NCBI GenBank assembly: GCA_012840385.1
Contig: DULK01000021.1
Span: 1-43,421, forward strand
DNA from: Syntrophomonadaceae bacterium
GTDB taxonomy: Bacteria; Bacillota; DSM-12270; Thermacetogeniales; Thermacetogeniaceae
Reading direction: 5' to 3'
DNA length: 43,421 nucleotides
Shown here in pieces: positions 27,389 through 43,235 of the stretch. Every line of letters begins with the position of its first letter. Positions within the stretch are counted from its first letter, which is position 1. Made by a program: the position numbers and the translations under genes. The notes below the pieces were generated by a model. The model was not told where the DNA came from and ran no database searches. It saw only the letters and a program-made list of their open reading frames with translations.

Positions 27389-27645
27389 TTAAGCACCCCC
27401 ATCGCTCCCAGGATGCTGCGCAGTTCTTCCTGTACCGGAGGATCTAAAGAGACATCTGCTACCTCGCGTATAAAGCAGAGAAGCAACTGGACAATGCTGA
27501 GATCTATGCCTTCCAGATCTCGCAGGTCTATCGAGGGGCCGGTCTCCGCCTTGAGTTCGATCAGGGCCTGCTTCAACTCCCACGAATCTTCTATGCTGAG
27601 GCTACCTTCAAGCAACAAAACGCTGCCTTTCCTGGTGATCGTCAC
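27382..27645 (-). CDS. STAS-domain protein
   Basis: An 87-residue STAS (anti-sigma-factor-antagonist-like) domain. VLLLEGSLSIEDSWELKQAL is the first strand-helix unit, and IDLRDLEGIDLSIVQLLLCF contains the loop where Ser/Thr phosphorylation occurs in SpoIIAA; here the usual DSS/DTA is replaced by IDLS, so the Ser may or may not be the site. The GTG start overlaps the cheA stop as GTGA, and the 3' end overlaps the next gene. A partner-switch or scaffold function within the signalling array is inferred. No anti-sigma kinase gene is nearby. Confidence 0.82.
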   Translation of the reverse strand: MTITRKGSVLLLEGSLSIEDSWELKQALIELKAETGPSIDLRDLEGIDLSIVQLLLCFIREVADVSLDPPVQEELRSILGAMGVLKC

Positions 27646-29963
27646 TGCATGACACCTCCTGAGACCAAACTCCTGGGATTCAAAACAAGGAGTATGCTAC
27701 CGTCGGAGAGAATGGAAGCACCGGTGTAAAGCTCGATGTTCCCCATATCACCAGGCAACGGTTTTAAGAGAATCTCCACTTCTCTTTCTAGAGCATCAAC
27801 GGCTACCCCGCTGCCTGAACGCAGGATGACGACGCTGTGGGAGTCGCCACCTGTAGCGGGCTCGTAACCCAGGACATTCCTCAGATGGGTTACTGCGACC
27901 ACCCTCCCCCTGAGGTAGAGCCCCTCTCTCTTACCCAGGCCGTGCAGGTCGTCACTCCCGGCACGAACTACCTCCTGCACATCTTCCATAGGGATTCCGT
28001 ACCTGGAATCACCACAGCGTACCACCAGAACCCGTGTTGTGGCAACTGTGAGGGGGAGTTCCAGGCGGACTGTCAAGCCGGTGCCGGGGGAGTTCTTCAG
28101 CTGCACGCTTCCCCCCAGGCTCTCAACGGTATCCCTGACGACGTCCATCCCCACGCCGCGGCCGGATAACTCGCTGACCTCCTTTTTTGTGGAAAAACCG
28201 GGTTCGAAAATGAGCTGTACCGCTTCATCGTCCGGGATTAGTGAGGCTTTATCAGGAGTGATCACTCCTTTTTCTACAGCGTTTTCCTTTACTCTGACAG
28301 GATCGATTCCTCTCCCATCATCCTCCACCTCGATGAAAACAGTGTGACCGTCCTGCCCTGCACGCATGGCAAGTGTCCCCTCCGGGTCCTTCCCGGCCGC
28401 AGACCTTTCTTCAGGCGGTTCCAGCCCATGGTCAAGGGAGTTGCGGACGATGTGCAGCAGCGGCTCGTATACCCTTTCCAGAACCGTTTTGTCGATTCTG
28501 GTTTCTTCACCCTCGATGAGGAGCCTGACCTTCTTGCCCAGGTCCTTGCTGACATCCCTTACAAAGCGAGGAAATCGCCGGAAGATCTGGGATGCGGGTA
28601 TGAGCCGCAGGCCCATAACCATGTCCTGCAGCTCGCGGCTGATCTGCTCAAGCAACTGGTACTTCTCCTTAAGCTCCCGCGCCGCCTCGGGTATTCCCCA
28701 GTAGACCTCCAGCTTCCGTACAAGGTATGGGATGCTGTTTTTGGCAACGGTCAGTTCGCCTGAGAGCTCGAAAAGCCTTTCAAGCTGGCTCTCCTCGATT
28801 CGAATGAATTTCCTTCCGCCTGTGTCCGGTGATGCCCCTGAAGGGCTGTGTCCGCTGACTGCGACATTTCCGGGAGTAAACGCCACACCCGCCTTCTCGC
28901 TCCCTGCTCCTGCAGACATCCTCTCACCTCCCGCAAGCGCCGCCTCGAGCATATTGACAGCTTCGTTGAAGCAGCGCCAGTCGGGATCAGGCTCCCCCAG
29001 CCGCCTGTCCAGGATATCCTGCTCCCCGACAGCGCCGGTTATGAGTGAGAGCACCCTTTCCAGAGAAGGCGCGGCAGTAGCGCGCCCCTTGTTCTGTTCG
29101 ATGTAAATCTTCTGCTGGCGCAGGATCTCCTTGAGTATCCCTGTGTCGTAAGACAGCGGTCTCTCCCCCGCCCAAAGCGAAGTGAGATCTTCTTTTTTCA
29201 GCTCGCAGATCAGGATCTGGTTGCTGGCAGGGTCGAGAAATTCCACGGTCTCCCTTAGCTCGGACAGCATCCCCGGAGGAGCCAGCAGGTAGATCTCAAA
29301 CCACACCCAGACGCGCTCCGGGTCCAGTTCTTCAAGGGAAGGAAGGCTCTCGCTGTGGCAGACGAAGGAAACTACATCTCCAAGCCTGAGGATTTCACAC
29401 ACGATCACCAGCGGGTCCTGCCCTGTATAAAAAATCTCCGGATCAAATTTCAGGACAACCTGGTAAACGCTCATTCCTTCCCTTTCCGAGGCTTTCAGGA
29501 TCTCTGCCCTGGCATCCGCGGAAAGCCTGGAAAGATAGTCGTTGCCGGAATCTTCCTGCGGCCCTACATTAGAGACAGTGTTGTGTCCGGCACCGCGCAG
29601 GGCGCCAAGGGCTGCCAGCACCTCGACATGCCTCGCGGGGTCCGCCTGCATGCCGGAGGCAAGCAGGGCTACAAGCTCTCTGACATAGTCGAATCCCTGG
29701 AAAAGAAGGTCCGCCAGGTTGCTGGTGAAGGGCATCCTGCCGGCCAGGACGTTTTCCAGTGCCTCTTCAAGCAGATGGGTGACTTCAGAAATCTCTGCGG
29801 CTCCGACAAGTCCGGCTGCCCCCTTCAGGGTGTGGGCGCTCCGGAAGAGGTCCCTGATTGCGTCGCCGTTCCCTGGTTCCCTTTCCAAAACAAGGGCGGC
29901 CCTGTCCAAATTTTCAAGCAGTCCTTCGGCCTCTTCGAGAAATCCGGCCAGCAGTTCATCCAT
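27642..29963 (-). CDS. cheA: Chemotaxis histidine kinase CheA
   Basis: A 773-residue kinase. P1 HPt domain: phosphoacceptor His44 in FRSAHTLKGAAG. Residues about 140-270 form a divergent P2-like response-regulator-binding region, followed by a Ser/Gly-rich linker. P3 dimerisation starts at RIEESQLERLFELSGELTVA. P4 ATPase: N box HIVRNSLDHGLEPPEER, G1 VEDDGRGID, G2 SGRGVGMDVV. P5 CheW-like: VLVVRCGDSRYGIPMEDVQE to the end. All catalytic elements are present, so an active kinase is expected. It overlaps the preceding cheY by 8 bp and the STAS gene by 4 bp. Inputs are presumably the soluble MCP through the triple CheW. Confidence 0.95.
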   Translation of the reverse strand: MDELLAGFLEEAEGLLENLDRAALVLEREPGNGDAIRDLFRSAHTLKGAAGLVGAAEISEVTHLLEEALENVLAGRMPFTSNLADLLFQGFDYVRELVALLASGMQADPARHVEVLAALGALRGAGHNTVSNVGPQEDSGNDYLSRLSADARAEILKASEREGMSVYQVVLKFDPEIFYTGQDPLVIVCEILRLGDVVSFVCHSESLPSLEELDPERVWVWFEIYLLAPPGMLSELRETVEFLDPASNQILICELKKEDLTSLWAGERPLSYDTGILKEILRQQKIYIEQNKGRATAAPSLERVLSLITGAVGEQDILDRRLGEPDPDWRCFNEAVNMLEAALAGGERMSAGAGSEKAGVAFTPGNVAVSGHSPSGASPDTGGRKFIRIEESQLERLFELSGELTVAKNSIPYLVRKLEVYWGIPEAARELKEKYQLLEQISRELQDMVMGLRLIPASQIFRRFPRFVRDVSKDLGKKVRLLIEGEETRIDKTVLERVYEPLLHIVRNSLDHGLEPPEERSAAGKDPEGTLAMRAGQDGHTVFIEVEDDGRGIDPVRVKENAVEKGVITPDKASLIPDDEAVQLIFEPGFSTKKEVSELSGRGVGMDVVRDTVESLGGSVQLKNSPGTGLTVRLELPLTVATTRVLVVRCGDSRYGIPMEDVQEVVRAGSDDLHGLGKREGLYLRGRVVAVTHLRNVLGYEPATGGDSHSVVILRSGSGVAVDALEREVEILLKPLPGDMGNIELYTGASILSDGSILLVLNPRSLVSGGVMQ

Positions 29964-30339
29964 TGCTTCCGACCTCCCCCGTCAGTATGCGGCAGACCTC
30001 CAGCAGCAGCTTCGGAGGTACCGGCTTAACGAGGTGAAGATTTGCTCCTGTCGCCAGGCTTTGCACAATATCATCAGTACTCGACTCGGACGATACGACA
30101 ATCGCCGGAATGACCTGCAGTTCAGGGCGCTCCCGGATCTCCTTGAGGAAATCGATCCCGGTCACACCCGTCATGTTGATGTCCACCAGGAAAAGGTCGA
30201 TATTATGCTGCAGAGAAATTTCGATTGCCTCGCATCCGTTTTCCGCTTCCTCAAGTTCAAATCCGGCGGCTTCAAGCACCTTCCGATAATAGGCGCGCAC
30301 GGTCTGGGAATCGTCGACGACAAGAATTTTCTTCGCCAT
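29956..30339 (-). CDS. CheY-like response regulator
   Basis: A 127-residue receiver domain with Asp9/Asp10, phosphoacceptor Asp53 (LFLVDINMTGVTG), the switch Ser in VVSSES and Lys in LVKPVPP. The residue after the phospho-Asp loop differs from the other CheY of the operon (MTGVTG versus MPRLDG). It overlaps cheA by 8 bp, the tightest link, making it the most likely direct target of CheA. ATG 30339 follows GAGGATG. No output domain is present. Confidence 0.9.
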   Translation of the reverse strand: MAKKILVVDDSQTVRAYYRKVLEAAGFELEEAENGCEAIEISLQHNIDLFLVDINMTGVTGIDFLKEIRERPELQVIPAIVVSSESSTDDIVQSLATGANLHLVKPVPPKLLLEVCRILTGEVGSNG

Positions 30340-30348
30340 AAATCATCC

Positions 30349-31176
30349 TCATTTCTGATAAATAATAGCATTGTTGAATTTGCGCACCCTGAAGACCGGA
30401 GAGATCCTGCTCATGGACTCCGAATGGCCGAGAAAAATAAAGCCTTTTGGCAGCAGGGATTCATAAAAATAAAGGGCTACCTCGCGTCTTCCCATGTCAT
30501 CGAAGTAGATCAGTACATTGCGGCAGAAGATGGCGTGGAAATCACGCATACCACTCATCTGCTGGCGGTCTTTGAGATTTACCTGGTAGAAGCGCACCTT
30601 CTCCTTGAGACAGGCATCTACCCCGTACCTGCCACCTGTTCTGGTGAAATATCTGTTAAGGTACACCTCGGGCACATCACGCACTGATCGCTCATCGTAT
30701 ACCCCGAGGCGTGCCTTCAAGAGCACCTCGCTGTTGATATCCGTGGCATGCACCTCGAAGTCCGCACCATCCTCTCCCAGCATCTCCAGCAGTATAATTG
30801 CCAGGGTGTAAGCCTCTTCTCCCGTTGAACATCCCGCCGACCAGACCCGCAAGGGCCCCATGCCTGCATTGGCGATAATTTCAGGGAGGGCCTCCTCGGC
30901 GAAGCACTTGAGCTGTTCGTATTCCCTGAAAAAATAAGTCTCGTTTACGGTGAGGCGGTTGAGCAGTATCTGGAGCTCCCGTCCCGAGAGATCACCTTGC
31001 AGGTACTGGAAGTATCTCCGGAAACTTTCAAGTTTCGTTGCACGCATGCGATCACAAATGCGCTTCTCCACATAGTAGCGCTTCTTATCATCGTAAGAGA
31101 GACCGGTTTTATTTCTGATGAAATCGGTTAGAAGGGTATATTCTTCATTTGAAATATTGATTGCTGTCTCGTTCAT
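30349..31176 (-). CDS. cheR: Chemoreceptor methyltransferase CheR
   Basis: A 275-residue S-adenosylmethionine-dependent glutamate methyltransferase. The N-terminal helical domain (SNEEYTLLTDFIRNKTG, RRYFQYLQ) precedes the SAM-binding core RVWSAGCSTGEEAYTLAIIL, EVHATDINSEVL and the catalytic-side block FHAIFCRNVLIYFD. An upstream TTG at 31194 overlaps the HEAT gene and lacks a good ribosome site; GGAG lies 12 nt before ATG 31176, which I prefer. It methylates the receptor adaptation region, presumably of the double-tip MCP in this operon. Confidence 0.94.
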   Translation of the reverse strand: MNETAINISNEEYTLLTDFIRNKTGLSYDDKKRYYVEKRICDRMRATKLESFRRYFQYLQGDLSGRELQILLNRLTVNETYFFREYEQLKCFAEEALPEIIANAGMGPLRVWSAGCSTGEEAYTLAIILLEMLGEDGADFEVHATDINSEVLLKARLGVYDERSVRDVPEVYLNRYFTRTGGRYGVDACLKEKVRFYQVNLKDRQQMSGMRDFHAIFCRNVLIYFDDMGRREVALYFYESLLPKGFIFLGHSESMSRISPVFRVRKFNNAIIYQK

Positions 31177-31180
31177 AAAT

Positions 31181-31759
31181 TCAGCCAGCTCCAATCTTCA
31201 CCAGCGCTTCTTCCACCACAAAATTAAGGAAGGGGTCTGAAAAGCGCTGGCACGCCAGTTTAAGGGCTTCCACATCCTCCCTCGAACCGCCCTTTTCACC
31301 CAGATATTCGGCAGCGCTACCTACAACATTCACATCAATATCATTTAGCACAACCTCGCGAAGCAGAAGCGTTGCGGATGATAACTCTCCTCTGCCAAGC
31401 GCCCTTACTGCCAGCTGGCGCACATCTGGATCAGGGTCACCCAGGAGACCGGAAATCACTCTTTCCGCAGCCTCACCGATTATCTGTAAAATCTCGCTGG
31501 CAGCATTTCTAACAAATGCATCACTGTGCCTGAGCAGCCTGGCGACCTCCTCTGCTACTGCTTCGGTGCCGATGCGGATGAGGGATATGATGCAGGCCTC
31601 CTGCACTGTGCGGCTCGTATCACTCTCAAGGACCTCCACCAGGATCGGTATGACGTCGGGGTGATCGAGGCTGCCCAATTTCAGTACAGTTCCTAGTCTC
31701 TCCTCCTCATCCGTATTCCTGAGCATTCTCCTCATCTCACTGATTTCAAGGTCTCCCAT
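31181..31759 (-). CDS. HEAT-repeat protein
   Basis: A 192-residue all-helical repeat protein. About five HEAT-like units are visible, e.g. LKLGSLDHPDVIPILVEVLE, TVQEACIISLIRIGTEAVAE, AFVRNAASEILQIIGEAAER, PDVRQLAVRALGRGELSSAT. It is likely a scaffold that binds another operon product. ATG 31759 follows GGAGG at 9 nt and overlaps the cheB stop by 14 bp, so it is co-translated between cheB and cheR. HEAT or PBS-lyase repeat proteins occur in some non-flagellar chemosensory systems; the partner here is unknown. Confidence 0.85.
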   Translation of the reverse strand: MGDLEISEMRRMLRNTDEEERLGTVLKLGSLDHPDVIPILVEVLESDTSRTVQEACIISLIRIGTEAVAEEVARLLRHSDAFVRNAASEILQIIGEAAERVISGLLGDPDPDVRQLAVRALGRGELSSATLLLREVVLNDIDVNVVGSAAEYLGEKGGSREDVEALKLACQRFSDPFLNFVVEEALVKIGAG

Positions 31760-32843
31760 TTCTATTTCCCTCCACTGCCCTGATGATCAAGGGTGCTATA
31801 TCGTAAGCCGGCGCCAGAACGTCCGCTCCGCCGCGCTGCCAAAGCTCTCCCGGCATCCCCCAGACCACTGCGGTTTCCTCGCTCTCGGCTATGGTGTAAC
31901 CGCCGCCTTTCCTAACTTGGGCCATCTCATCAACGCCGTCATCCCCCATGCCTGTGAGCATCACTCCCACGATCTGGCTGTCTCTCAGATGCTGGCGCAG
32001 GCTCCTGAGGGTGACGGAGACGGACGGTATGTAGAGGACATCACCCGGGTCCCTGGAAAGTCGCAGGACCAGCCTTTTGTCAATTGGCCGCCGGGCGAAC
32101 TTCAGGTGATACCCTCCTCGAGCGACGGTTACCGTGCCTTTTTCCAGAGGAACACCGTCAGCCGCCTCCCGCACCCGGAGGGCGCAGTACGCATCCAGGC
32201 GCTCTGCAAAGCACTTCGTAAAGCCTTCCGGCATGTGCTGGACAACAATCACGGGAGCCGGGAAGCTACCCGGAAGCGCTGGCAGTATACCCTCCAGCGT
32301 CCTGGGGCCCCCGGTCGAAACACCGATGATCACGACCCTATCGAGGGATTGATCAAAAGGAGCGGGCCGTGAAACGGCTGTCTTTTTAACAACTGCCGGG
32401 TGGGCAGCCTTCCCCCGGCCGAGCATAATTTTCAGCTTAGCCCTGGCCGCCGCCTTTACCTTTATCCTGATCTCGCTGCTGACCCGATCAAGGTTCAAGG
32501 AAACTGTTCCTTCCGGTTTTGCAATGCAGTCAACCGCACCCAACTCGAGAGCCTCGAATGTGGTCAAAGCTCCTCGATGGGTGAGGGATGAGACAACGAC
32601 AACTGCGCACGGGGAGGTGTGCATGATGTACTGGAGAGCCGTGAGGCCGTCCATCTTCGGCATGTTCAGATCTAGCGTGATAACATCGGGCTTCAGGGCA
32701 AGGTTCTTTTCGACGGCCTCCTCCCCGTCCCGGGCCATTTCCACAACCTCTATAGCCGGATCTTCTTCCAGGATTTTTTTCAGGTACTTTCGCATGAGTG
32801 CGGAGTCGTCAACTACCAGCACCTTGATCCGCTTCGCTGCCAA
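31746..32843 (-). CDS. cheB: Receptor methylesterase/deamidase CheB
   Basis: A 365-residue protein. The receiver domain (1-120) has Asp12/Asp13 and phosphoacceptor Asp58 (VITLDLNMPKMDG). A 45-residue linker leads to the esterase domain with catalytic Ser176 (GVSTGGPRT), His203 (QHMPEGFT) and Asp302 (TGMGDDG). All are intact. Phosphorylated CheB removes methyl groups from receptors, opposing CheR. It overlaps the triple-CheW gene by 35 bp, an unusually long overlap, and is probably translationally coupled. Confidence 0.95.
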   Translation of the reverse strand: MAAKRIKVLVVDDSALMRKYLKKILEEDPAIEVVEMARDGEEAVEKNLALKPDVITLDLNMPKMDGLTALQYIMHTSPCAVVVVSSLTHRGALTTFEALELGAVDCIAKPEGTVSLNLDRVSSEIRIKVKAAARAKLKIMLGRGKAAHPAVVKKTAVSRPAPFDQSLDRVVIIGVSTGGPRTLEGILPALPGSFPAPVIVVQHMPEGFTKCFAERLDAYCALRVREAADGVPLEKGTVTVARGGYHLKFARRPIDKRLVLRLSRDPGDVLYIPSVSVTLRSLRQHLRDSQIVGVMLTGMGDDGVDEMAQVRKGGGYTIAESEETAVVWGMPGELWQRGGADVLAPAYDIAPLIIRAVEGNRNGRP

Positions 32844-34290
32844 GATCTCTCAACTCATCCCTTTCCTTTTTGCTGAGAAGCCGCATGAAGTCCAGCAGGA
32901 TCAGGATACGTTCCCCCTTACGTACCTTTCCGATCCCGCTCAGGAAACCGGTCTCGTCCGCTTCCAGAAAAATTTCCGGAATCTGATCCACATCCCGCCG
33001 GGAAAGCTTAAGGACCTCCCTGACGGCATCCACGACAAGACCGGTCCTGGTGCTATCGATGTCGACGACGATTATTCTGCTGGATTCATTTCTGCCGCTT
33101 GTTTCCAGCCCGAATCGTTTTCTCAAATCCACGACCGGGGTTACCTGACCCCGGATATTGACCACTCCTTCAACGAACTCGGGCGCCCGGGGGACTGCAA
33201 AAATCCTGGGAACTCTGATGATCTCCTGTACCTGCGCTATTGGAGCACCGTATTCCTCTCCGGCCAGCATAAATGTAACGTACTGATCGTCTTCATCACC
33301 TGTATCAGTATGCTTGTCCATGCTTACTTCCCCGGTATCTTCTGTGAAAAGAACTTCGTAGTCGGATTCATTAAACAGACGCCTGGCGTCGAGGATTTTG
33401 ACAAGTCTCTCACTGCTTAAATTGCAGATCCCGCTGATAAAACCCGTTCCATTCGACTTGAGCATGGGCGGAACCGGTTCGATGCATTCCCTGGATACCC
33501 TTAGGACCTCCGATACTCCGTCAACTGCAAAGCCAGCAGTAATACGCCCGATATCGGTCGTGATATTTACCACGACTACCCGGCAGCGATCATCCAAGAC
33601 TTCCCCGTCGAGACCGAGCAAGCTGCCCAGGCGCACCAGCGGCAGGAGCCTCCCCCTCAACGTTGCCAGCCCTTCGCAGTAATACGGAGCGCCCGGTATC
33701 TTGCTGATGGATTCGGGGAGGTGAACAATCTCCTGAACGTCCATGATGTCAAGGGCGTATTCTTCGCTTCCAACGCGGAAGCTGACAAGCTGGCGTTCCC
33801 CTTCCTTCTCTTCGGCCTTGTCCTGAACCCTTTTCTCCACTGTACGGGAACCTTGACCTGGCTTCTTCTGGATGCGGGGAAACAGCTTCGCCGTGCTTAC
33901 GACCAGGACCAGCTCGCCGTCGCCCGTTTTCGCCACCGCATCCACAAACTCACCCTGTCCGGTTTCTTTTTTCTCGATATCACCGGAGGAAACGGTAACG
34001 ACATCTGACACGCGGTCTACGATGAAACCGAGTTTCCTGCCGCCGTAGTCGATGATAATGACCCGGCTGGATTCGTCGAATTCCCTGCGCTCAAGGCCAA
34101 AGCGCAGCCTGCCGTTGACCACTGTGAGGATTGTGCCCCGCAGGTTGGCCAGCCCCTCTACGTATGGGGGAGCCAGCGGCGCCCTGGTCAGTTCCGGCAT
34201 CCGGATGATCTCCTGGACAAGGTCAATGTCTATTCCGTACTTCTCCTTTCCAAGATAGAAGGAAACAAACTGCTTTGTGTCATTGGCCAT
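32809..34290 (-). CDS. Triple CheW-domain adaptor protein
   Basis: A 493-residue protein made of three CheW domains in tandem, about 7-145, 168-315 and 336-480. Each has the repeated pattern, e.g. YGIDIDLVQEIIRMPELTRA, YALDIMDVQEIVHLPESISK and YGAPIAQVQEIIRVPRIFAV, followed by EGLANLRG, EGLATLRG and EGVVNIRG. Linkers are charged. Normal CheW is one domain of about 150 residues that couples receptors to CheA, so this fusion could cross-link several CheA or MCP units. GGGGGG lies six bases before ATG 34290; GTG 34293 is too close. It is the second gene of the operon. Confidence 0.92.
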   Translation of the reverse strand: MANDTKQFVSFYLGKEKYGIDIDLVQEIIRMPELTRAPLAPPYVEGLANLRGTILTVVNGRLRFGLERREFDESSRVIIIDYGGRKLGFIVDRVSDVVTVSSGDIEKKETGQGEFVDAVAKTGDGELVLVVSTAKLFPRIQKKPGQGSRTVEKRVQDKAEEKEGERQLVSFRVGSEEYALDIMDVQEIVHLPESISKIPGAPYYCEGLATLRGRLLPLVRLGSLLGLDGEVLDDRCRVVVVNITTDIGRITAGFAVDGVSEVLRVSRECIEPVPPMLKSNGTGFISGICNLSSERLVKILDARRLFNESDYEVLFTEDTGEVSMDKHTDTGDEDDQYVTFMLAGEEYGAPIAQVQEIIRVPRIFAVPRAPEFVEGVVNIRGQVTPVVDLRKRFGLETSGRNESSRIIVVDIDSTRTGLVVDAVREVLKLSRRDVDQIPEIFLEADETGFLSGIGKVRKGERILILLDFMRLLSKKERDELRDLGSEADQGAGS

Positions 34291-34302
34291 CACCGACCCC
34301 CC

Positions 34303-36240
34303 CTAAAGCTGCTGCAGTTCGTCCGCCATGGCGGCTATCTCTTCGATCGCCCGCGCCAGTTCTTCTGCTCCGGCCGCCTGCTGCCGCGCCGCCGCCGACG
34401 CCTCTTCCGTAGCCGACGCAGCCTCCTGGGCGGCTGTGGCGATCTGCTCCACTCCCTTGCGTGCCTGGGTGAGGGCTGCCGCTATTTGAGCAGCATTGTT
34501 GGATACCTCCTGGGCGCTGTCCAGCACCTGGGCCATGTCCTGTTCGATGCTCTTGAGGTCCTCGGTAATCTTGCGGGCCTTCTCCACTTCATCCCTGGTG
34601 GACTCCCCAACGGACTCCACGTCTTTCAGGACCACCTGTACCTGATCCTGAATAGATTTCACCAGGTCCTTGATCTGTTCGGCGTTTTTGGCGCTGTCCT
34701 GGGCAAGGTTGCGTATGTCCGAAGCAACAACGGCAAAGCCTTTGCCGTATTCCCCGGCCCGTGCGGCTTCTATTGCCCCGCTTACAGCAAGCATGTTGGT
34801 CTGAATGCCGACATTGACAATCGTGTCAACGATCTTGTCGATCTGGCGTGCCCTCTTCTCCAGTTGCCTGATATTTTGGACGTTTTGAATGTTGACCTGG
34901 AGAGCGGAATTGATGCCTGAAATCAACTCGTCGACATTCGACTTATTGCGGGCGAGGAGGTCCGACAGGGCCTTGACCCGCTCCAGGGAGGCATTCGCCT
35001 TCTCCATGATGACATTGGCTCCCTTTTCAAGCTGCCCTGCAGCAGTCGAGGAATTTTCCGCAGCTTTCGCCTGCTGCTCAGCACCCTGGGAGACTTGTTC
35101 GAGTGCCGACATGATTTGCTGCGCCGACCGGTTCATTTCCTCGATGGCAGCCGAGAGTTCCTCCGCTGCCGCCGCAAGTCCTTCCGCCGATTTCTGGACA
35201 TCGGTAGAGGACCGCAGCACGTCGGCCATCTCCGCAAGCTCGGCGGCGCTTGTGGAGATCTGCTCCAGTGCCTCGGTCTGCTGCTCTACCGAGGCTAGCA
35301 CCTCCTGTGCTGCCTGCGCCTGCTCCTGTGCCGTCCTGGCAATCTGGGCCGAACCCTCACGAAACGACTCTGCAGCCACCGTTGATTCCTGCGACAGCTT
35401 TTCGATCTCCCGGGAGCCGTCCACCACGCCGGCCATGTCCCGAGCTATCACGACCAGGTCGGCAGTGACGGTCTTTCCCTTCTCCACCTCCTGCCGGGCT
35501 GTTTCCGCCGCCTTGTTGATCTCCTCGGCTATGGACCGCACCTCGTTCTGGATAATCCCCACCAGGTCCCTGATGTCGTTCGCCGCCTTCTCAGACGTCT
35601 CTGCCAGCGTACGCACCTCGTCCGCCACCACTGCAAACCCCTTGCCGTGTTCCCCCGCACGGGCGGCTTCGATGGCTGCATTCAGTGCAAGGAGGTTGGT
35701 CTGGTCGGCTATGTTTACAACTGTCGATACAATGCCGCCGATGTTCTCGGCCATCTTTTCCAGTTCCCCTACGAGCCGGGCGGATTCGGCGTTTTTGTCC
35801 GCTGCGGCATTGACCCCCTGGATCATCCCCTCAATCTCCCCGGAATTGACCCTGACAAGGTCCTGGATTGCGATTCCTTTTTCCAGGGAGAGCTTCGCCG
35901 CTTCGGCCGCATTCCTGACATTTCCCAGTATTTGTGTGATTGCCGCCAGTGACTCCTCGGAGGCTCCTCCTGCCTGCTGGGCGCCGGATGCTATCTGGTC
36001 CATGGCCGACTTTAGTTCCTCACAGGCGCTGGATGCCTCCTGCACTTGCGAAGAGAGTTCGTCCGTGGCAGCAGCGATGCGCTCGGCTATCTGCTGCTGC
36101 TTGGCGTAGGTACGCGCCTGCCTCCGCTCCGCCTCCAGTTTCCTCCGATCAACTTGTTCCCTGGCTGCCACTTCCGATTTCGACTCTCCTTTTCCCGCAC
36201 CGCGCGACGGTGGTGTAGCCAGTTTCTTCTCAACTGCCAT
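34303..36240 (-). CDS. Soluble methyl-accepting protein with two signalling tips
   Basis: A 645-residue coiled-coil protein without membrane segment, signal peptide or recognisable sensor domain. Two full MCP hairpin tips lie 300 residues apart: [20 protein letters not shown] near 177-196, and [20 protein letters not shown] near 477-496, each followed by GKGFAVVA. Flanking heptads contain several Gln/Glu-rich candidate methylation sites (e.g. [16 protein letters not shown]). It appears to be a tandem duplication of an MCP signalling module. GGAGGT lies six bases before ATG 36240; ATG 36246 abuts it. It is the first gene of the chemosensory operon. Ligand sensing may be through a partner protein. 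Confidence 0.9.
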
Positions 36241-36270
36241 GCTCATACCTCCATTATTTATTTTTAAATT

Positions 36271-36286
36271 ACGGCAAAAATGCCGT
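36271..36286 (-). promoter_or_regulatory. Leader hairpin upstream of the chemosensory operon
   Basis: ACGGCA-AAAA-TGCCGT is a perfect 6-bp hairpin about 30 nt before the MCP start. In the leftward direction it is followed by AATTTAAAAATAAAT, so it could be a weak attenuator or an mRNA 5' stabiliser. No clear promoter was found. Confidence 0.4.
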
Positions 36287-36545
36287 TATTTAATTCGATT
36301 GCAACGAATCTGCGAAATGCAAAGATTTCATAACAGCCTTCCGAAATAAAAATAATTAGCGGAAAGCTTAGAATATCGTGTGATATTAATGTTAGAATGG
36401 GAAAAACAGATGAGAAGATACTCTGCCCAACGGCAGCAGAAGCTCAGGAAGAGTTAAGTAGGCGTGAGAATAAATCGAGGAGGTAATATACATAAAAATA
36501 ACAAGTTACATAAATACCATTTTATGGTTTCGTTGTTAGAATATA

Positions 36546-36556
36546 CCCCCCCCCCC
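36546..36556. repeat. Poly-C tract of 11
   Basis: Eleven consecutive C residues within otherwise AT-rich sequence. Tracts of this type slip during replication and are also frequent sites of sequencing error. No gene reads through it in any convincing frame. Confidence 0.8.
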
Positions 36557-36762
36557 TTGGGCTACTTTGGTATCTCTGTAATATAATGTCACTTTGCTCG
36601 CCTCCTTAACCTCATCATTTCTTAGGATTATTTATCTTTGACATAATATACTTAATTCCTTCTCAATACCCAAAATTTTGATCAATTTTTTTATAAAAAA
36701 TTAGCCTATTGTCTTATTACTGAAACATCACATTGTCTCCGTTTTTGGAATGCCCGGACAAA

Positions 36763-36982
36763 TTAATCCACAAACCCTTCCCATGCAATTGACACCTCAT
36801 ACGACTGGGCGACCATCTGCAGTTGATGCCCATGCCCTGCATTGTGGCAATCATGTCCTTGAAGCGGCAGAACTCCTACGATGCAGCGTCCACGATAAAG
36901 TTCACCCTTACAGGATTTAGTCCAGGCCTATGTCGCTCGTAGAGGTCAGTTCACGGACGGCTTTGCTCTGAAAGACTTTCAC
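36763..36982 (-). pseudogene. Decayed gene fragment of unknown family
   Basis: Leftward translation gives protein-like pieces in changing frames: VKVFQSKAVRELTSTSDIGL then a stop; VNFIVDAAS then a stop; EFCRFKDMIATMQGMGINC; and after a one-base shift MVAQSYEVSIAWEGFVD before TAA at 36763-36765. At least two stops and two frameshifts are needed to join them. The base composition is richer in G+C than its surroundings. I do not recognise the family. Confidence 0.5.
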
Positions 36983-37176
36983 CCTGTACCCAGACCGGCG
37001 ATGATGTTTCCCTGCCGGATTTTTCCGGCTCGAAAATCGCTATTCCTGCTTTCCTACGGGTTTACACAGACGTCAGAAAAAGAGAAAATTATATGTATAC
37101 GTGGTCATGAAAGATCAACCGCGTTAAAGAGTAATTAACATAAAAAAGCAGCAAACAAAACATGGAGGTAAATTTT

Positions 37177-37419
37177 ATGAGTAATACTGAATTGAATGCT
37201 CAGCAGGGATTCACAATCCGGTGGTTTAAAGTCATCTGCAATTCTTGCGGCTGGAGTTGGTTTGAAAGCGAACAGGTGAAAAAAAGCCCTTATTTTTATT
37301 GCCCCAAATGCCTGAGCAAAATAAAAAATTCGGATAGAAAGCCAAACAGGGTTGCGAAAAAGGCCGACATTATCTCATTAAAAAAATATTTTGACCAGAT
37401 AAGGCTGGATTCTTTTTAG
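37177..37419 (+). CDS. Small zinc-ribbon protein
   Basis: An 80-residue protein with a compact CxxC...CxxC zinc ribbon: ICNSCGWSW (about residues 17-25) and YCPKCLSKI (about 43-51). The remaining tail is basic then helical (ADIISLKKYFDQIRLDSF). GGAGG lies 8 nt before ATG 37177; the upstream ATG at 37162 overlaps that site. It is convergent with the two-component locus. DNA, RNA or protein binding cannot be distinguished. Confidence 0.75.
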   Translation: MSNTELNAQQGFTIRWFKVICNSCGWSWFESEQVKKSPYFYCPKCLSKIKNSDRKPNRVAKKADIISLKKYFDQIRLDSF

Positions 37420-37456
37420 GACTTCCCTTTGAGAAACCGGGTGTGGGCGACCTCAG

Positions 37457-38332
37457 TTACTCAGTGGATTCGACCTCTCGAAGAATGCTTTTTACATACT
37501 CTCTCATCTCCGGGATGCGGTTTTCCTGGAGAAGGGCCAAGAGGATCTGGATATGGTTGATGAAGTCGTGGCGCTGCGCCCGGATCGCATTAACGCGGTC
37601 CTCCATCTCAAGGGCCGCCTTTTCCTGGGCCTGAATGAATGCTTCCCGGCCAGCATATTGAAATGTTCTCCAAAGAGAATACAGGCTTACTGCTACAGCT
37701 AAAGCAACAAGGAGGTAGGCAATGGTCACCGGACTCGTAGCATCCATCCGAAAATGCGGGTTTCCCATATCTTCCGCAATCACTATGTAAAGAAGCAATA
37801 ACTGAACAAAGGGGATGGCCAGTAAGCCGGCTTTTAGTTTAAAATAACTGACTTCCCGGAAAATACACCAGCCTCTCCGGTACCCAATATAAATCAGCAG
37901 GAGGTAAACCGGAACAAAGGTCCAGGGATAAAGGAGTTGTAAGGTATGCGAGGTATAGAATTCCGCCGGCGAAATGTGAAAGGCATATAGAAAGACAATC
38001 CAGGCTATTAAGTCTGCTGGAAGTGTCACTACGATGTGAAAAACGATAAGAGCCGCAAAGGAACGGGCGGTACGGAATCCTAACCCCCACTTAAAACCGG
38101 CGAACAAAATCAATTCGTTTAAGACAGCGCGTAGTGCCTGTGGTAGATAGAAAGTAAAAGTCCATAGGATGGATTCCAGTATAACCAGCAAAAAGGTTAT
38201 TCTTCTGTTCTTCCAAATATCATACCCCACCAGCATCAGGGTAAAGGGCCACAAAACCGCAGTACTCAATAACACAGTAAGGAATCTTACCAATACATCG
38301 ATGAGACTTGGATCCGCCAAATCAAATACCAC
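37457..38332 (-). CDS. Membrane protein with Spo0B-type phosphoacceptor domain but no kinase domain
   Basis: A 291-residue protein. About seven hydrophobic segments (roughly 14-35, 45-65, 70-82, 92-118, 132-150, 165-186, 200-222) precede a helical domain with RAQRHDFINHIQILLALLQ, the Spo0B/CitA/AgrC-type dimerisation and His-phosphotransfer helix with His255. The frame then stops after REVESTE, where a HATPase domain would normally begin; no ATPase remnant lies downstream. It is last in a three-gene unit with a LytTR regulator and a kinase-like protein that lacks the matching His. It may be a membrane phosphotransfer protein phosphorylated in trans. GTG 38332 is the start given; a TTG four codons later has a better-placed AGGTGG. 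Confidence 0.8.
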   Translation of the reverse strand: MVFDLADPSLIDVLVRFLTVLLSTAVLWPFTLMLVGYDIWKNRRITFLLVILESILWTFTFYLPQALRAVLNELILFAGFKWGLGFRTARSFAALIVFHIVVTLPADLIAWIVFLYAFHISPAEFYTSHTLQLLYPWTFVPVYLLLIYIGYRRGWCIFREVSYFKLKAGLLAIPFVQLLLLYIVIAEDMGNPHFRMDATSPVTIAYLLVALAVAVSLYSLWRTFQYAGREAFIQAQEKAALEMEDRVNAIRAQRHDFINHIQILLALLQENRIPEMREYVKSILREVESTE

Positions 38333-38484
38333 CTGCGCGCTTCTCGCATTTACGTGATCCTCTATTATTCAAGGTCAACTGTAATGTATCTATAGAGATT
38401 GGCATCTGATCTGACTCCTCTTTGCAGGAGCAATCGCTTGAGCGCCGTAGCTTAGAACCAGATTAGGGACGGCCCTATCCATTA

Positions 38485-39249
38485 TTACTTGCTAAGTTTG
38501 TTCAGCAAGCTGCAGAACTCCTCAAACTTCTCCCGGCGCATCGTGACCTTCTCGGAGTAGCTGTAGAAACTAACCTCGTAGCTCCTGTCCGCGTAGGGTG
38601 TTATTCGCTCGACCATCCGGGTGTTAATGATAAAGCTTTTGTGGCAGCGGAAAAATTCAGGTTCCGACAGGGATTTCTCCAGGTCGGCCAGGGAATGCGG
38701 TGTTTCGTACCGGCCCCGCGTGGTGTGAATGATGGACTTCTTGCCCTGCTTTTCAATGAAAAAGATGGTGCTTTTGTTTATCAGGATTGCCCCGTGACCC
38801 AGCTTAAGCAGCAGCCGGTCTTGACTGCCATCTCTTGTGACGGAGTTGTTGATTCCCCGGTGTGCAGCGGCGAAATGGCTGAACCGCTTCAGCTTCGCTA
38901 ACGCTTTAGCCAGCCTGTCGCGGGTGACAGGTTTCGTGATAAAGTCGGTGGCATCGAGATTAAAGGCCTCAACGGCATACCTGGGGTATGCACTTATAAA
39001 AACTACGAACAGGTTTGGAAATTCCTGCTGCAAAGTATAAACCACCGACAGCCCATCCAGGCCGGGCATTTGTATATCTACGAACAGGGCATCAGGTTTC
39101 TCTTCCCTGGCGAGCGTCAGAAGCTCTTCACCATTTAAGGCAATTCCTATTACTTCTACTTCTTCAAACGAACTCAGGTAGCTTTTGACCAGATTGCAGA
39201 TGGGTTCATCGTCATCGGCAACGATAACTCTGAAACAGGTGGTGGACAT
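38485..39249 (-). CDS. LytTR-family response regulator
   Basis: A 254-residue regulator. The receiver domain (6-125) has acidic Asp12-Asp14, phosphoacceptor Asp58 (ALFVDIQMPGLDG), the switch Ser in VFISAYPRY and Lys in ITKPVTR. The LytTR DNA-binding domain (about 145-250) has IFFIEKQGKKSIIHTTRGRY, the LEKSLSEPEFFRCHKSFIIN block and ITPYADRSYEVSF, as in AgrA, LytR and VirR. It is the middle gene between the two incomplete kinase-like genes. Its targets are unknown. AgrA-type regulators bind paired direct repeats upstream of their genes; none was identified here. Confidence 0.93.
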   Translation of the reverse strand: MSTTCFRVIVADDDEPICNLVKSYLSSFEEVEVIGIALNGEELLTLAREEKPDALFVDIQMPGLDGLSVVYTLQQEFPNLFVVFISAYPRYAVEAFNLDATDFITKPVTRDRLAKALAKLKRFSHFAAAHRGINNSVTRDGSQDRLLLKLGHGAILINKSTIFFIEKQGKKSIIHTTRGRYETPHSLADLEKSLSEPEFFRCHKSFIINTRMVERITPYADRSYEVSFYSYSEKVTMRREKFEEFCSLLNKLSK

Positions 39250-39298
39250 CTGTTATGCCCTCCAAACTTCCCGGAAACCCATTTTATGATTGGCCCCC

Positions 39299-40312
39299 TT
39301 AATACTTTGCAGGGATCATTACCGTGAATCTGGTTCCATTCGTCTTATCTGACGAGACCCCGACTATGCCTGACAATTCTTCAGTCAAAGTCTTAACTAT
39401 GTGGAGCCCCAAACCGCTGTGCCCTTCTCCCTTTTGGGTATACCCCGTCTCAAAAATCAGTCCTAATTCTTCTTCGGGGATAACAGGCCCCCTGTTGCAG
39501 ACCTCCAACTGCAGCAAGGGTCCGGTCCGGAAGAGCCTGACAGATACAGTTTTCTGGTACTCCTCCCCGGAAAGGACGGCGTCAAAAGCGTTGTCGATGA
39601 GGTTGCCCATGATCCTGGCCAGGGCAGGTGAATCCTGGCCCAGCCTGGCCAGAGAAACATCGATGTCGATATCCAGCCGGATTCTGCGAATATCAGCTTC
39701 GGCCAGCTTGCTTTTAAGAAGAGCGCCGATGATGGGGTTGTCGACCTGGATAATGTCGTTAAGACGGGTGACTTTATTGGAAACACATTCCAGGTAATCT
39801 CTCAGTTCGCTGATCCGCCCGCCATCCAATAAGTCTGAGATCCGGTCTACGTGTTCAAGGAAGCCCCGGTTCTGAAAGTCCATCGCCTGGATAATCTTCT
39901 GTTTGTGTTCCGCCATGGCCTCCTTGATGGCCAGATCCGCTTCTCGACGAGAAACAGCTATCAGCCTCCGGCCCACCAATACGCTCAATACTATGCTTAG
40001 CGCAAGGGAGCCAAAAATGATCACCTGCTTCAAAATGCTTTCGCTGACTGCAGGAGTGTTAGAAACAAAAACCAGGAACGCCGCCAGCAGCAAGACAAAC
40101 TGGATGGCTGCGAGCAGGAGAGGGGTACTCCTTTGTAATGGCGCTAATTTCTTGACAATTTGCATACCAGAAGTATTCTGCACAGCCGAAAAAAATCCTT
40201 CTTGTTCCAAAAAACCGGGTATTGACACCAAAATCCCGTAATTATGGGCGTCAAATATGGCTGTTAAGAACATCCGGCTAACCAGAAAGCAAAAGACCCT
40301 TTCTGCTGCCAT
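39299..40312 (-). CDS. GHKL histidine-kinase-like protein lacking the phosphoacceptor His
   Basis: Up to 337 residues. Two membrane segments (about 64-84 and 94-114) precede a dimerisation-type helix, QNRGFLEHVDRISDLLDGGR, which aligns with QRHDFINHIQILLALL of the 37457 gene and has Arg149 where His is expected. The ATPase domain is complete: N box MGNLIDNAFDAV, a divergent G1 (VCNRGPVIPEEEL), FETGYTQKG, and G2 GHSGLGLHIVK. The start is doubtful: ATG 40312 lacks a ribosome site, and a GTG near 40177 is possible. It is first of the three-gene unit. A mobile-element end lies about 70 bp upstream. It is probably the ATP-binding partner of a two-protein kinase. Confidence 0.82.
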   Translation of the reverse strand: MAAERVFCFLVSRMFLTAIFDAHNYGILVSIPGFLEQEGFFSAVQNTSGMQIVKKLAPLQRSTPLLLAAIQFVLLLAAFLVFVSNTPAVSESILKQVIIFGSLALSIVLSVLVGRRLIAVSRREADLAIKEAMAEHKQKIIQAMDFQNRGFLEHVDRISDLLDGGRISELRDYLECVSNKVTRLNDIIQVDNPIIGALLKSKLAEADIRRIRLDIDIDVSLARLGQDSPALARIMGNLIDNAFDAVLSGEEYQKTVSVRLFRTGPLLQLEVCNRGPVIPEEELGLIFETGYTQKGEGHSGLGLHIVKTLTEELSGIVGVSSDKTNGTRFTVMIPAKY

Positions 40313-40426
40313 CAGGAAGTAATTATGCGGTTAGGCGGCCCGATGGCTAACCATAACAAAAAACCTCCCACACATACAATGGTTGTGAATTTCTCCAGTA
40401 ACCCCTCCGAAACCGGGAGGATCTTG

Positions 40427-40436: not shown

Positions 40437-40518
40437 TTTCTTTGTGAGAGAGATGTTGCCTCTTTATTGTGCTAAAATTATGGCACATTTTTTATCACTT
40501 CCAGGGAGGCAACTTGCT

Positions 40519-41040
40519 TTGCAGATCATGCATGACTTTGGGGTATCACCTTTAGAGTACAGCAAGAGGGAAGAAAATAACAACTTCCCCGTCATCGATT
40601 TCTGTCCCATGTGCCACGCCAAAGGCACCCTGAAGAAACATGGTTTTTACTCAAGATACGCTCTGCCCTTTAAGAAAGAACTGCGGATTGTTATCAGGAG
40701 ATTCAAGTGCTCCTGCTGCAAGAAAACAATCTCTGTCCTGCCCTCTTTCCTCCTCCCTCACTATCAACACACTGTGGGTTTCATCCTGGGATGCTTGAAA
40801 GGCCATTTTATCTTGAGGAAGCTCAAGGCGTACTACCAGAAGGTCCAGTTCTACAGGAGGCGGTTTCTCAAGAACCTGAAGGCAGTGGAGATGTTTTTTA
40901 GGGACCCGGGCTTAAGGGATCAGTTCCCGGAACCCCATCAAGAGAAGGCCATAAAGCTGCTGAAAATGATCGGGGCTTGCGCCTCGGCCTTCTCCCAAAG
41001 GTTCTTCAGTCATTTTCGTCACAGCTTTATGGCACTTTAA
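40519..41040 (+). CDS. DUF6431-like zinc-ribbon protein of the transposable element
   Basis: A 173-residue basic protein. The N-terminal zinc ribbon is FCPMCHAKGTLKKHGFYSRY followed by RRFKCSCCKKTISVLPSF, an arrangement like the DNA-binding head of some transposases but without a catalytic domain. The C-terminal half is helical and rich in Lys/Arg. GGGAGG lies nine bases before TTG 40519. Frames open from 40444 (GTG, then ATGs at 40453 and 40480) could give a longer product, but with poor ribosome sites. I associate such proteins with neighbouring DDE transposase and AAA genes, and the same order occurs here. Its role in transposition is unknown. Confidence 0.7.
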   Translation: MQIMHDFGVSPLEYSKREENNNFPVIDFCPMCHAKGTLKKHGFYSRYALPFKKELRIVIRRFKCSCCKKTISVLPSFLLPHYQHTVGFILGCLKGHFILRKLKAYYQKVQFYRRRFLKNLKAVEMFFRDPGLRDQFPEPHQEKAIKLLKMIGACASAFSQRFFSHFRHSFMAL

Positions 41041-41174
41041 TTTTACTATTCCTCCGGGCCTAATGGGAAGAACTTTTTAAACACAGAGCTTTTGCATGGA
41101 ACCTTTCCACTTGATTTTAGACTGTTACGTGTGGCCAAACGGCATCAAAACTCATGATTCAGGAGGAAGATTCC

Positions 41175-42435
41175 ATGGACGAAAAGGAAAGAGAGAAGGT
41201 AGCGCTGTTTCGCTTTGGCCTGATTGCCCCTATCCTGCAGGGGCAGGTGACCAACATCCGGGAGTATCTGGCCGAAGTAGCCGACAGGGTGCACCAGGTC
41301 CCCCACTATGGGCCTGAAGGAGTACGCTCCCAAAACCATCGAGTGCTGGGTGAGGGATTACCGGAGGGAGGGGTTTGAAGGGCTCAAGCCGAAAGCCCGT
41401 TCCGACAGGGGGCAGAGCAGGAAGATCCCGCCAGAACTGCAGGAGAGGCTGCTTTCTCTGAGGAAGGAGCAACCCGGTATCCCGGTCTCGGTCTTTTACG
41501 ATCAGCTGATCGCCAAAGGGGTCATTCTGCCCTGTGATTTCTCCTACTCCTCAGTCTACCGGTTTTTGAAAAGGCAGGACCTGGTGAGGGGGGAAATCCG
41601 CAGGGAACCGGAGCGCAAGAGGTTTGCCTACGACACCGTCAACATGCTCTGGCAGGGGGACGTGTCCTACGGCCCCTACCTCAAGCTGAACGGCAGGAAG
41701 GTGCAGGCCTTCCTCTTTGCCTTTATCGACGACTGCTCGCGCCTCATCCCTTTTGCCCGGTTCTGCCTTTCGGAGAAATACGATTCGTTGAAGATAGTCT
41801 TCAAGGAGGCTCTTCTGCGCCGGGGGATACCCAGGATGGTTTACGTGGACAATGGGAAGATCTACCACTCCGACCAGTTCCATGTGGTCTGCGCCTCTTT
41901 AGGTATCGCCCTCATCCACACCAGGCCGTACGATGCCCAAGCCAAGGGGAAAATCGAGAGGTTCTTTTTAACGGTAAAACAGCGCTTCTACTCCCGGCTG
42001 GAACCGGACGACCTCTCCTCTCTTGAATCCCTGAACCGGGCCTTCTGGGAGTGGCTGGAGACGGATTACCACCGGAGTGTACACACTGCTCTGGGTATGA
42101 GTCCCCTGGACAAGTTCCTGTCCCAGGCAAGCCAGGTCAGAATGGTGGAGGACCCCGCTTCCTTGGAGCAGTTGTTCCTGCAGCGGGAGAGGCGCACCGT
42201 GAAGCACGACGGCACCATCTCCCTCAACAAGCGGCTCTTCGAGGTGCCGCCCCAGTTCATCGGGCAGAAGATAGAAGTCCGCTTCGACCCTGAGAATCCC
42301 GGGAGGGTGTTCGTCTTTGCCGGCGGTGTCATGGTGGCCGAGGCGAAGCCGGTCAACCTGGCCGACAACGCCCGGGTGAAAAGAGACCGGTCCCTCTCTT
42401 TCGCCAGGATGCTGGATGAGGAGGGGAAAGGGTGA
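41175..42435 (+). pseudogene. DDE (Mu/TnsB-like) transposase, frameshifted
   Basis: Two frames form one transposase of about 420 residues. The first starts at ATG 41175 (AGGAGG at 8 nt) and reads MDEKEREKVALFRFGLIAPI ... ADRVHQVP. At a CCCCC run (41300-41304) the frame must lose one base to continue as TMGLKEYAPKTIECWVRDYR, the usual helix-turn-helix. The rve catalytic core follows: Asp in QGDVSYG, Asp in VYVDNGKIY and Glu in GKIERFF, then the C-terminal beta domain. The catalytic triad is intact. The downstream frame alone, starting at ATG 41308, lacks the N-terminal 45 residues. The ATPase start overlaps its stop (TGATG). Confidence 0.82.
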
Positions 42436-43235
42436 TGTACCGGGCGTTTTATTCCCTGTCAGGGGAGCCTTTCTCGAAGGGGATCGCACCGGAGGATTAC
42501 TTCCCTTCGAGAAACTGGTCGGAGGCGAAGGCCAGGCTGCAGTACCTTGTGAGAGCAAGGGGAATCGGTGTCCTGGTGGGGGAGCCGGGGTCGGGAAAGA
42601 CCTTTGCCCTGCGCTCCCTTGCGGCAGGGTTGAACCCGGCCCTGTACAGGGTGATCTACCTCCCACTGTCTACCGGAACGGTGATGGATTTTTACCGGGG
42701 GCTGGCCGGCGGGCTGGGTGAATAGCCCAAATTCCGCAAGATCGACCTCTTCGAGCAGATCCAGCGCTCTGTGCTCAACCTCTTTCAGGAGAGAAGGATC
42801 ACTCCCGTCTTCATCCTAGATGAAATGCACCTGGCTTCACCCAAGTTCCTGCTGGATTTGAGCCTGCTCTTCAATTTCTCGATGGATTCGCTGAACCCGT
42901 TTGTCTTCGTTCTCTGCGGGCTGCCGTTCCTGCTGAACCGCCTGGGCTTAAGCCAGACGCAGTCCCTCGCCCAGCGGGTGGTGATGCGCTACAAGATGGA
43001 GCCTCTGGAGAGGGATGAGGTCAAGGGTTACATTGAACACCACCTGAAGCTGGCGGGAGCCAATCATCCCCTGTTCACCGATTCGGCTGTCGAGGCTATC
43101 GCTTCCAACTCCCGGGGCTGGCCGAGAATGGTGAACAATCTCGCCGGCACCGCTCTTATGCTTGGCGCTCAGCTCAAGGTTTGCCCTGTGAATGAGGATA
43201 TCGTCAGACAGGCTGCTGGTGAGCTGGGGTTCTGA
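42435..43235 (+). pseudogene. AAA ATPase of the transposable element (TniB/ExeA-like), interrupted by TAG
   Basis: A 266-codon frame holding one in-frame TAG at 42723-42725. The first part has the FSLSGEPFSKGI-type start typical of ExeA/TniB proteins and Walker A GEPGSGKTFALRSL. After the TAG the same frame continues PKFRKIDLFEQIQRSVLNLF, Walker B VFILDEMHLASP, the sensor block LCGLPFLLNRLG, the Arg-finger region LAQRVVMRYKMEPL and the C-terminal helical bundle. Only one base (GAG or CAG to TAG) need have changed. The partner ATPase normally selects targets and activates the transposase, so the element is probably immobile without help in trans. Confidence 0.82.

Follow-up and report, generated by a model that had tools for sequence, protein, structure and literature searches.

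Histidine kinases in which the phospho-acceptor histidine and the ATPase are located on different proteins have been described in a few bacteria. In Rhodobacter sphaeroides, neither CheA3 nor CheA4 autophosphorylates alone, and the acceptor protein is also a phosphatase (PMC3591291). In Mycobacterium tuberculosis, a two-component system consists of three proteins, Rv0600c, Rv0601c and TcrA (Shrivastava 2007, cited in PMC10017428; PMC9274095). Their three linked genes encode the ATP-binding kinase half, the His-bearing kinase half and the response regulator, and Rv0600c/Rv0601c is one HisKA-type kinase that was divided between two neighbouring genes in a single lineage. Outside chemotaxis, natural split kinases were suspected mainly from domain counts, with 1,556 HisKA proteins lacking a HATPase domain (PMC3591291). 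Among membrane receptor kinases, trans-phosphorylation takes place between the protomers of AgrC (PMC6066662, citing George Cisar 2009). We found no description of a split receptor of the AgrC/SPOB_a type in the open-access literature searched; subscription papers were outside this search.

The window, i.e., the whole stretch of 43,421 nucleotides of a Syntrophomonadaceae bacterium analysed here, contains three genes that were proposed from sequence alone to encode a complementary split kinase. The original prediction described a protein with the motif RHDFINH (His255) but no ATPase domain, a second protein with a complete ATPase domain but Arg149 (NRGFLEH) instead of the histidine, and a LytTR regulator between both. 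Pfam scan and alignment confirmed the description of the first protein, the other two also held, and all three open reading frames were found in place, with only the start of P0002 being corrected:

P0001, 37457..38332, minus strand: AgrC-like receptor; about seven transmembrane helices precede a complete DHp (SPOB_a) hairpin that contains His255
P0003, 38485..39249, minus strand: response regulator with receiver domain and LytTR DNA-binding domain
P0002, 39299..40165, minus strand: two transmembrane helices, DHp-like hairpin with Arg149 and intact GHKL ATPase domain

The Pfam scan detected SPOB_a at residues 242–289 of P0001 (E 1e-11) and no recognisable HATPase domain in this ORF. The HDxxN signature is present, and the protein ends 36 residues after the phospho-acceptor His255, coinciding with the end of the DHp hairpin. 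In the AlphaFold model the terminal DHp hairpin was confident (second helix 273–290) and there was no CA domain; comparing the model to the PDB by Foldseek gave nothing meaningful (best E 0.27), and the P0001 profile had zero matches among PDB chains. In P0002, HATPase_c was found at residues 227–335 (E 3e-18) and SPOB_a only marginally (E 0.16). All ATP boxes were present (N box NLIDNA, G1 NRGPVI, F box, G2 SGLGL), and P0002 reads QNRGFLEH where C30, a canonical paralogue in the same genome, reads QRHDFLNH; Arg149 (Arg100 in the short form of the protein) occupies the aligned histidine position. The CA fold of the AlphaFold model matched solved kinases, among them DivL, and the profile of the ATPase family matched AgrC (PDB 6e52, E 8.6e-10). 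The first ~49 residues of the 337-aa ORF as called (39299–40312) are doubtful because the near-identical copy in genome G011 is frame-broken there and the family starts near Met50, giving a length of 286–288 aa. These residues are therefore probably non-coding, with the true start near Met50. The regulator P0003 is intact.

The arrangement recurs in about 12 genomes, two of them Thermacetogeniaceae-like and ten Desulfotomaculia-like, across which orthologue identity falls to about 45–50% for the ATPase protein and 25–30% for the receptor. A locus search with P0001 revealed a Pelotomaculum MAG contig encoding a 52%-identical ATPase partner (QNEHF), then a receptor fragment with RHDFINH that also ends after the DHp; a second receptor there is cut off by the contig end. 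Profile searches added G286, G452, G454, G455, G405, G406, G407, G409 and G467; G286 contains the regulator, the His-less ATPase and two receptors, the genome of the host G452 is complete, and the partner in G467 is truncated by the contig end. In 11 genomes one contig contains both ATPase and receptor, the G409 locus is interrupted by a contig end, and an orthologue of P0003 was found within the cluster in G011, G286, G452, G454, G455, G405, G406, G407 and G409. The ATPase orthologues scored above 320 bits, and the next matches, nearly all ordinary kinases that have the His, at or below about 200.

In each of the 11 readable ATPase orthologues the N, G1, F and G2 boxes were recognisable, the N/T at position +4 was absent, and the His column contained another residue (R, R, E, Q, Q, Q, Q, R, T, R and E; Arg and Gln four times each, Glu twice, Thr once). 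All 11 readable receptors kept RHDF[IN]N (H, D at +1, N at +4) and ended 31–42 residues after the histidine. Related kinases matched 136 times with a gap at this position in five, and His was found in 118 of the 131 with a residue; the non-His residues belonged to the 11 split-system orthologues, to a Tyr in G316 and to one apparent misalignment. The complementarity first seen as His and Arg is conserved in about 12 genomes, the substitute being Arg, Glu, Gln or Thr, and no readable orthologue of P0001 or P0002 was a full kinase. Chance and a sequencing error truncating P0001 are ruled out, as the same end was found in the 11 readable receptors and the paired defects recur together. Its recurrence in about a dozen related bacteria suggests that the split is a genuine mode of signalling and not the result of gene damage. 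Using a profile search for the ATPase orthologue in 398 phylum-wide genomes and in a one-class sample of 113 genomes, only G000, G011 and G286 among the 398 were identified as carriers; the system therefore is rare and concentrated in one class.

Comparing the window to its relatives suggested that the three genes moved as a unit:

three-gene block, 37483..40381, no strand assigned, 2.9 kb: 94.9% nucleotide identity to G011 (L063 12435-15363)
edge of co-linearity with the sister genome G001, 37420..37421, no strand assigned

Beyond this block no homology between the window and G011 was detectable; it stops within the last codons of P0001, and the DNA just 3' of P0001 is unrelated between both. 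The sister genome G001 matches the window at 27561–37420 with 97–98% identity, and the cassette is absent there. A block common to the window and G011 without flanking homology, and missing from the site in G001, therefore most likely was acquired horizontally. The upstream edge of the cassette in the window interrupts a terminator hairpin, which G011 has in complete form. As the transposase-like element abutting the cassette replaced the upstream terminator arm, the expression of the cassette in the window is uncertain. Read by eye, a three-gene element on the plus strand (40444–43235) abuts the upstream edge, with a short zinc-finger-like ORF, an integrase-like transposase and an AAA ATPase. 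The cassette also adjoins genes at 32809–36246 that encode, judged by eye, a three-repeat CheW-like protein and a soluble methyl-accepting-type protein, and a different MCP is encoded after the ATPase gene of G405 and G407. No neighbour gene was constant across lineages; an HD-domain protein was found in one genus and an MCP in another. G001 contains a frame-broken remnant of P0001 fused to an IS3-type transposase tail (L064 8715-9681, G001:C9), in G489 a broken receptor fragment and the regulator remain and the ATPase is lost, and the linked receptor of G407 is in two frames; the split system therefore is also being lost.

Such remnants raise the question whether the locus is merely a decaying AgrC-like one, with P0001 as a truncated pseudogene and P0002 as a dying kinase. 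The end of the G011 homology in the last codons of P0001, the broken copies in G001 and G489, and a dN/dS of 0.58 for P0002 between the window and G011 would support this. The latter value rests on few changes (24 non-synonymous, 13 synonymous) and indicates weaker constraint than elsewhere. However, P0001 and P0003 both showed 0.26 in the same comparison, and among close Desulfotomaculia-type relatives the receptors had a dN/dS of 0.15–0.29, the ATPase 0.15–0.23 and the regulator about 0.2. Both the receptor and the ATPase family are under purifying selection, and the short receptors therefore are maintained genes and not debris. With dN/dS well below 1 in most comparisons, frames open in almost all copies, and the same end point and residue pattern in about 12 genomes at 25–50% identity, decay is very unlikely and for the family largely refuted.

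P0002 might alternatively be a pseudokinase of the DivL type, in which the histidine is replaced and the CA domain serves allosteric sensing. Loss of the histidine with an intact CA domain is the pattern of DivL too, DivL was among the structural matches, a repurposed kinase has been described (PMC4211667), and the genome has a canonical kinase of the P0002 family (C30). Nevertheless, the ATP boxes of P0002 are intact, and this reading leaves unexplained that the domain retained in P0002 is consistently the very one missing from its linked partner, and that no further kinase of this family with both parts occurs at the locus. We therefore consider it unlikely.

Even less probable is that P0001 acts as a membrane Spo0B, a phosphotransferase connecting P0003 to a receiver protein from an unlinked gene, with P0002 in a regulatory role. 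P0001 does terminate after the SPOB_a hairpin, and small SPOB_a-only proteins exist at the Spo0B locus in Negativicutes. However, Desulfotomaculia-type genomes contain a separate Spo0B-sized SPOB_a protein (180–205 aa), and G489 has lost P0002 and has a broken receptor too. That P0001 is Spo0B itself is ruled out by this separate gene; P0001 is also a membrane protein and not located at the rpmA-obgE locus. Two points refine the original prediction: this separate Spo0B-sized gene, and the homology of both proteins as halves of an AgrC-like kinase. The SPOB_a-only proteins of Negativicutes are 76–108 aa long and contain RHDFINH (L120 5902-6210, also L094, L110, L117 and L121); the L120 gene occupies the Spo0B position between rpmA and obgE and looks like a Spo0B reduced to its helical hairpin. 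An identity as an agr locus was likewise rejected, as the cluster is without agrB, and AgrB was found elsewhere in 9 of 11 genomes. We also observed two-TM kinases of about 290 aa with intact His adjoining agrB (G011:C13:124198-125610 and G286:C12:53341-54722), an agr arrangement without the usual multi-pass sensor.

In a profile–profile comparison, the receptor and ATPase families matched over 119 columns (probability 98.2%, E 5.5e-14) covering the last two transmembrane helices, the linker and the DHp. Being homologous over this region, both halves probably descend from one AgrC-like kinase, a conclusion drawn from this profile match. Among the full-length relatives of the two families are AgrC-like kinases of about 450 aa, one of which, in G141, is encoded next to an AgrB-like gene and the gene of a LytTR regulator. 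The simplest history, which we infer, would be duplication of an AgrC-like kinase followed by complementary loss. G316 (G316:C1, L245 5025-7702) encodes two neighbouring AgrC-like kinases of full length whose defects are reciprocal: in one, Tyr replaces His and the ATPase is intact; in the other, His is kept and the N and G2 boxes are degenerate. This pair may represent an intermediate towards such a split, or an apparently independent instance of it.

In G286, G452 and G406, one ATPase partner is accompanied by two receptors. Within the pairs of G286 and G452 the sensors are 40–45% identical with synonymous sites near saturation, whereas the DHp domains are 87–88% identical (dS 0.2–0.5). The DHp therefore was homogenised, or the sensors were exchanged, as expected if the DHp must fit one shared partner. 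The G406 pair does not show this pattern (DHp 47%). Two receptor pieces at the contig ends C12 and C16 of G407 could possibly form one unlinked receptor, although the join is inferred. A bolder reading is that one His-less ATPase subunit serves several exchangeable receptors, each consisting of sensor and DHp; the evidence leaves this finely balanced. Whether the receptors duplicate, swap sensors and decay around an ATPase that stays single-copy, with the DHp kept homogeneous, might equally be answered either way. By analogy, such a system would resemble cytokine receptors, several of which share one JAK.

Taken together, the data support the proposed complementary split kinase, and P0001 and P0002 are likely two obligate complementary membrane subunits of a split AgrC-like kinase; heterodimer and phosphotransfer are inferred, without biochemistry. 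In this model, the multi-pass N-terminal domain of P0001 would sense a signal, with both ligand and sensing being inferred. P0002, which retains only the final two transmembrane helices, a DHp hairpin without the histidine and a putatively working ATPase, would pair with P0001 via the homologous TM/DHp regions as in an AgrC homodimer. Its ATPase would phosphorylate His255 of P0001 in trans, and P0001~P would hand the phosphoryl group to P0003; both steps remain inferred. Given trans-phosphorylation in AgrC, a mixed P0001/P0002 dimer needs no new chemistry. The HE/DxxN/T motif has been linked to phosphatase activity in the acceptor protein (PMC3591291). The receptors kept this HDxxN motif and P0002 lost it, and unpaired P0001 may dephosphorylate P0003, an activity that is inferred as well. 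A model in PMC3591291 allows ultrasensitivity or bistability in the output of a bifunctional kinase that is split; for P0001/P0002 this is a prediction of that model and not a result of this study. The system makes testable whether an obligate heteromer can evolve from a homodimeric receptor kinase, whether splitting leads to the predicted ultrasensitivity or bistability, and whether several receptors can be served by one catalytic subunit. It is also a warning, as annotation pipelines would call both proteins defective kinases.

The CheA3/CheA4 precedent named in the original prediction is valid, since here too acceptor histidine and ATPase are located on separate proteins, each without the function of the other. 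It is not the sole one: CheA3/CheA4 are soluble chemotaxis kinases with an HPt-type P1 domain, neither membrane receptors nor of the SPOB_a/AgrC type, and they miss whole domains, while P0002 keeps its hairpin and lost only the motif residues. In Synechocystis, Hik36/Hik43 (PMC7656254) likewise split a kinase into HPt and catalytic proteins that meet one response regulator, but they are of the CheA/PilL type and their genes are unlinked. Spo0B of Bacillus shares the SPOB_a helical hairpin with the phospho-acceptor histidine; Spo0B is soluble, with a degenerate ATPase-like domain. Rv0600c/Rv0601c/TcrA is a closer precedent than CheA3/CheA4; unlike Rv0600c/Rv0601c, however, the P0001 and P0002 families overlap in TM and DHp, another residue replaces the histidine, and the number of receptors has grown around a single ATPase. 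AgrC/AgrA shares the receptor topology, the SPOB_a-type DHp, the GHKL ATPase, the LytTR regulator and trans-phosphorylation between protomers. Yet AgrC (HPK10) combines sensor, SPOB_a-type DHp and GHKL ATPase in a single chain, forms homodimers and is linked to agrB, whereas P0001/P0002 are two non-equivalent subunits with sensor and ATPase on different chains. Split kinases as such are already known; what is new is the AgrC/SPOB_a-type membrane-receptor form, a conserved, gene-linked and reciprocal split among membrane receptor kinases.
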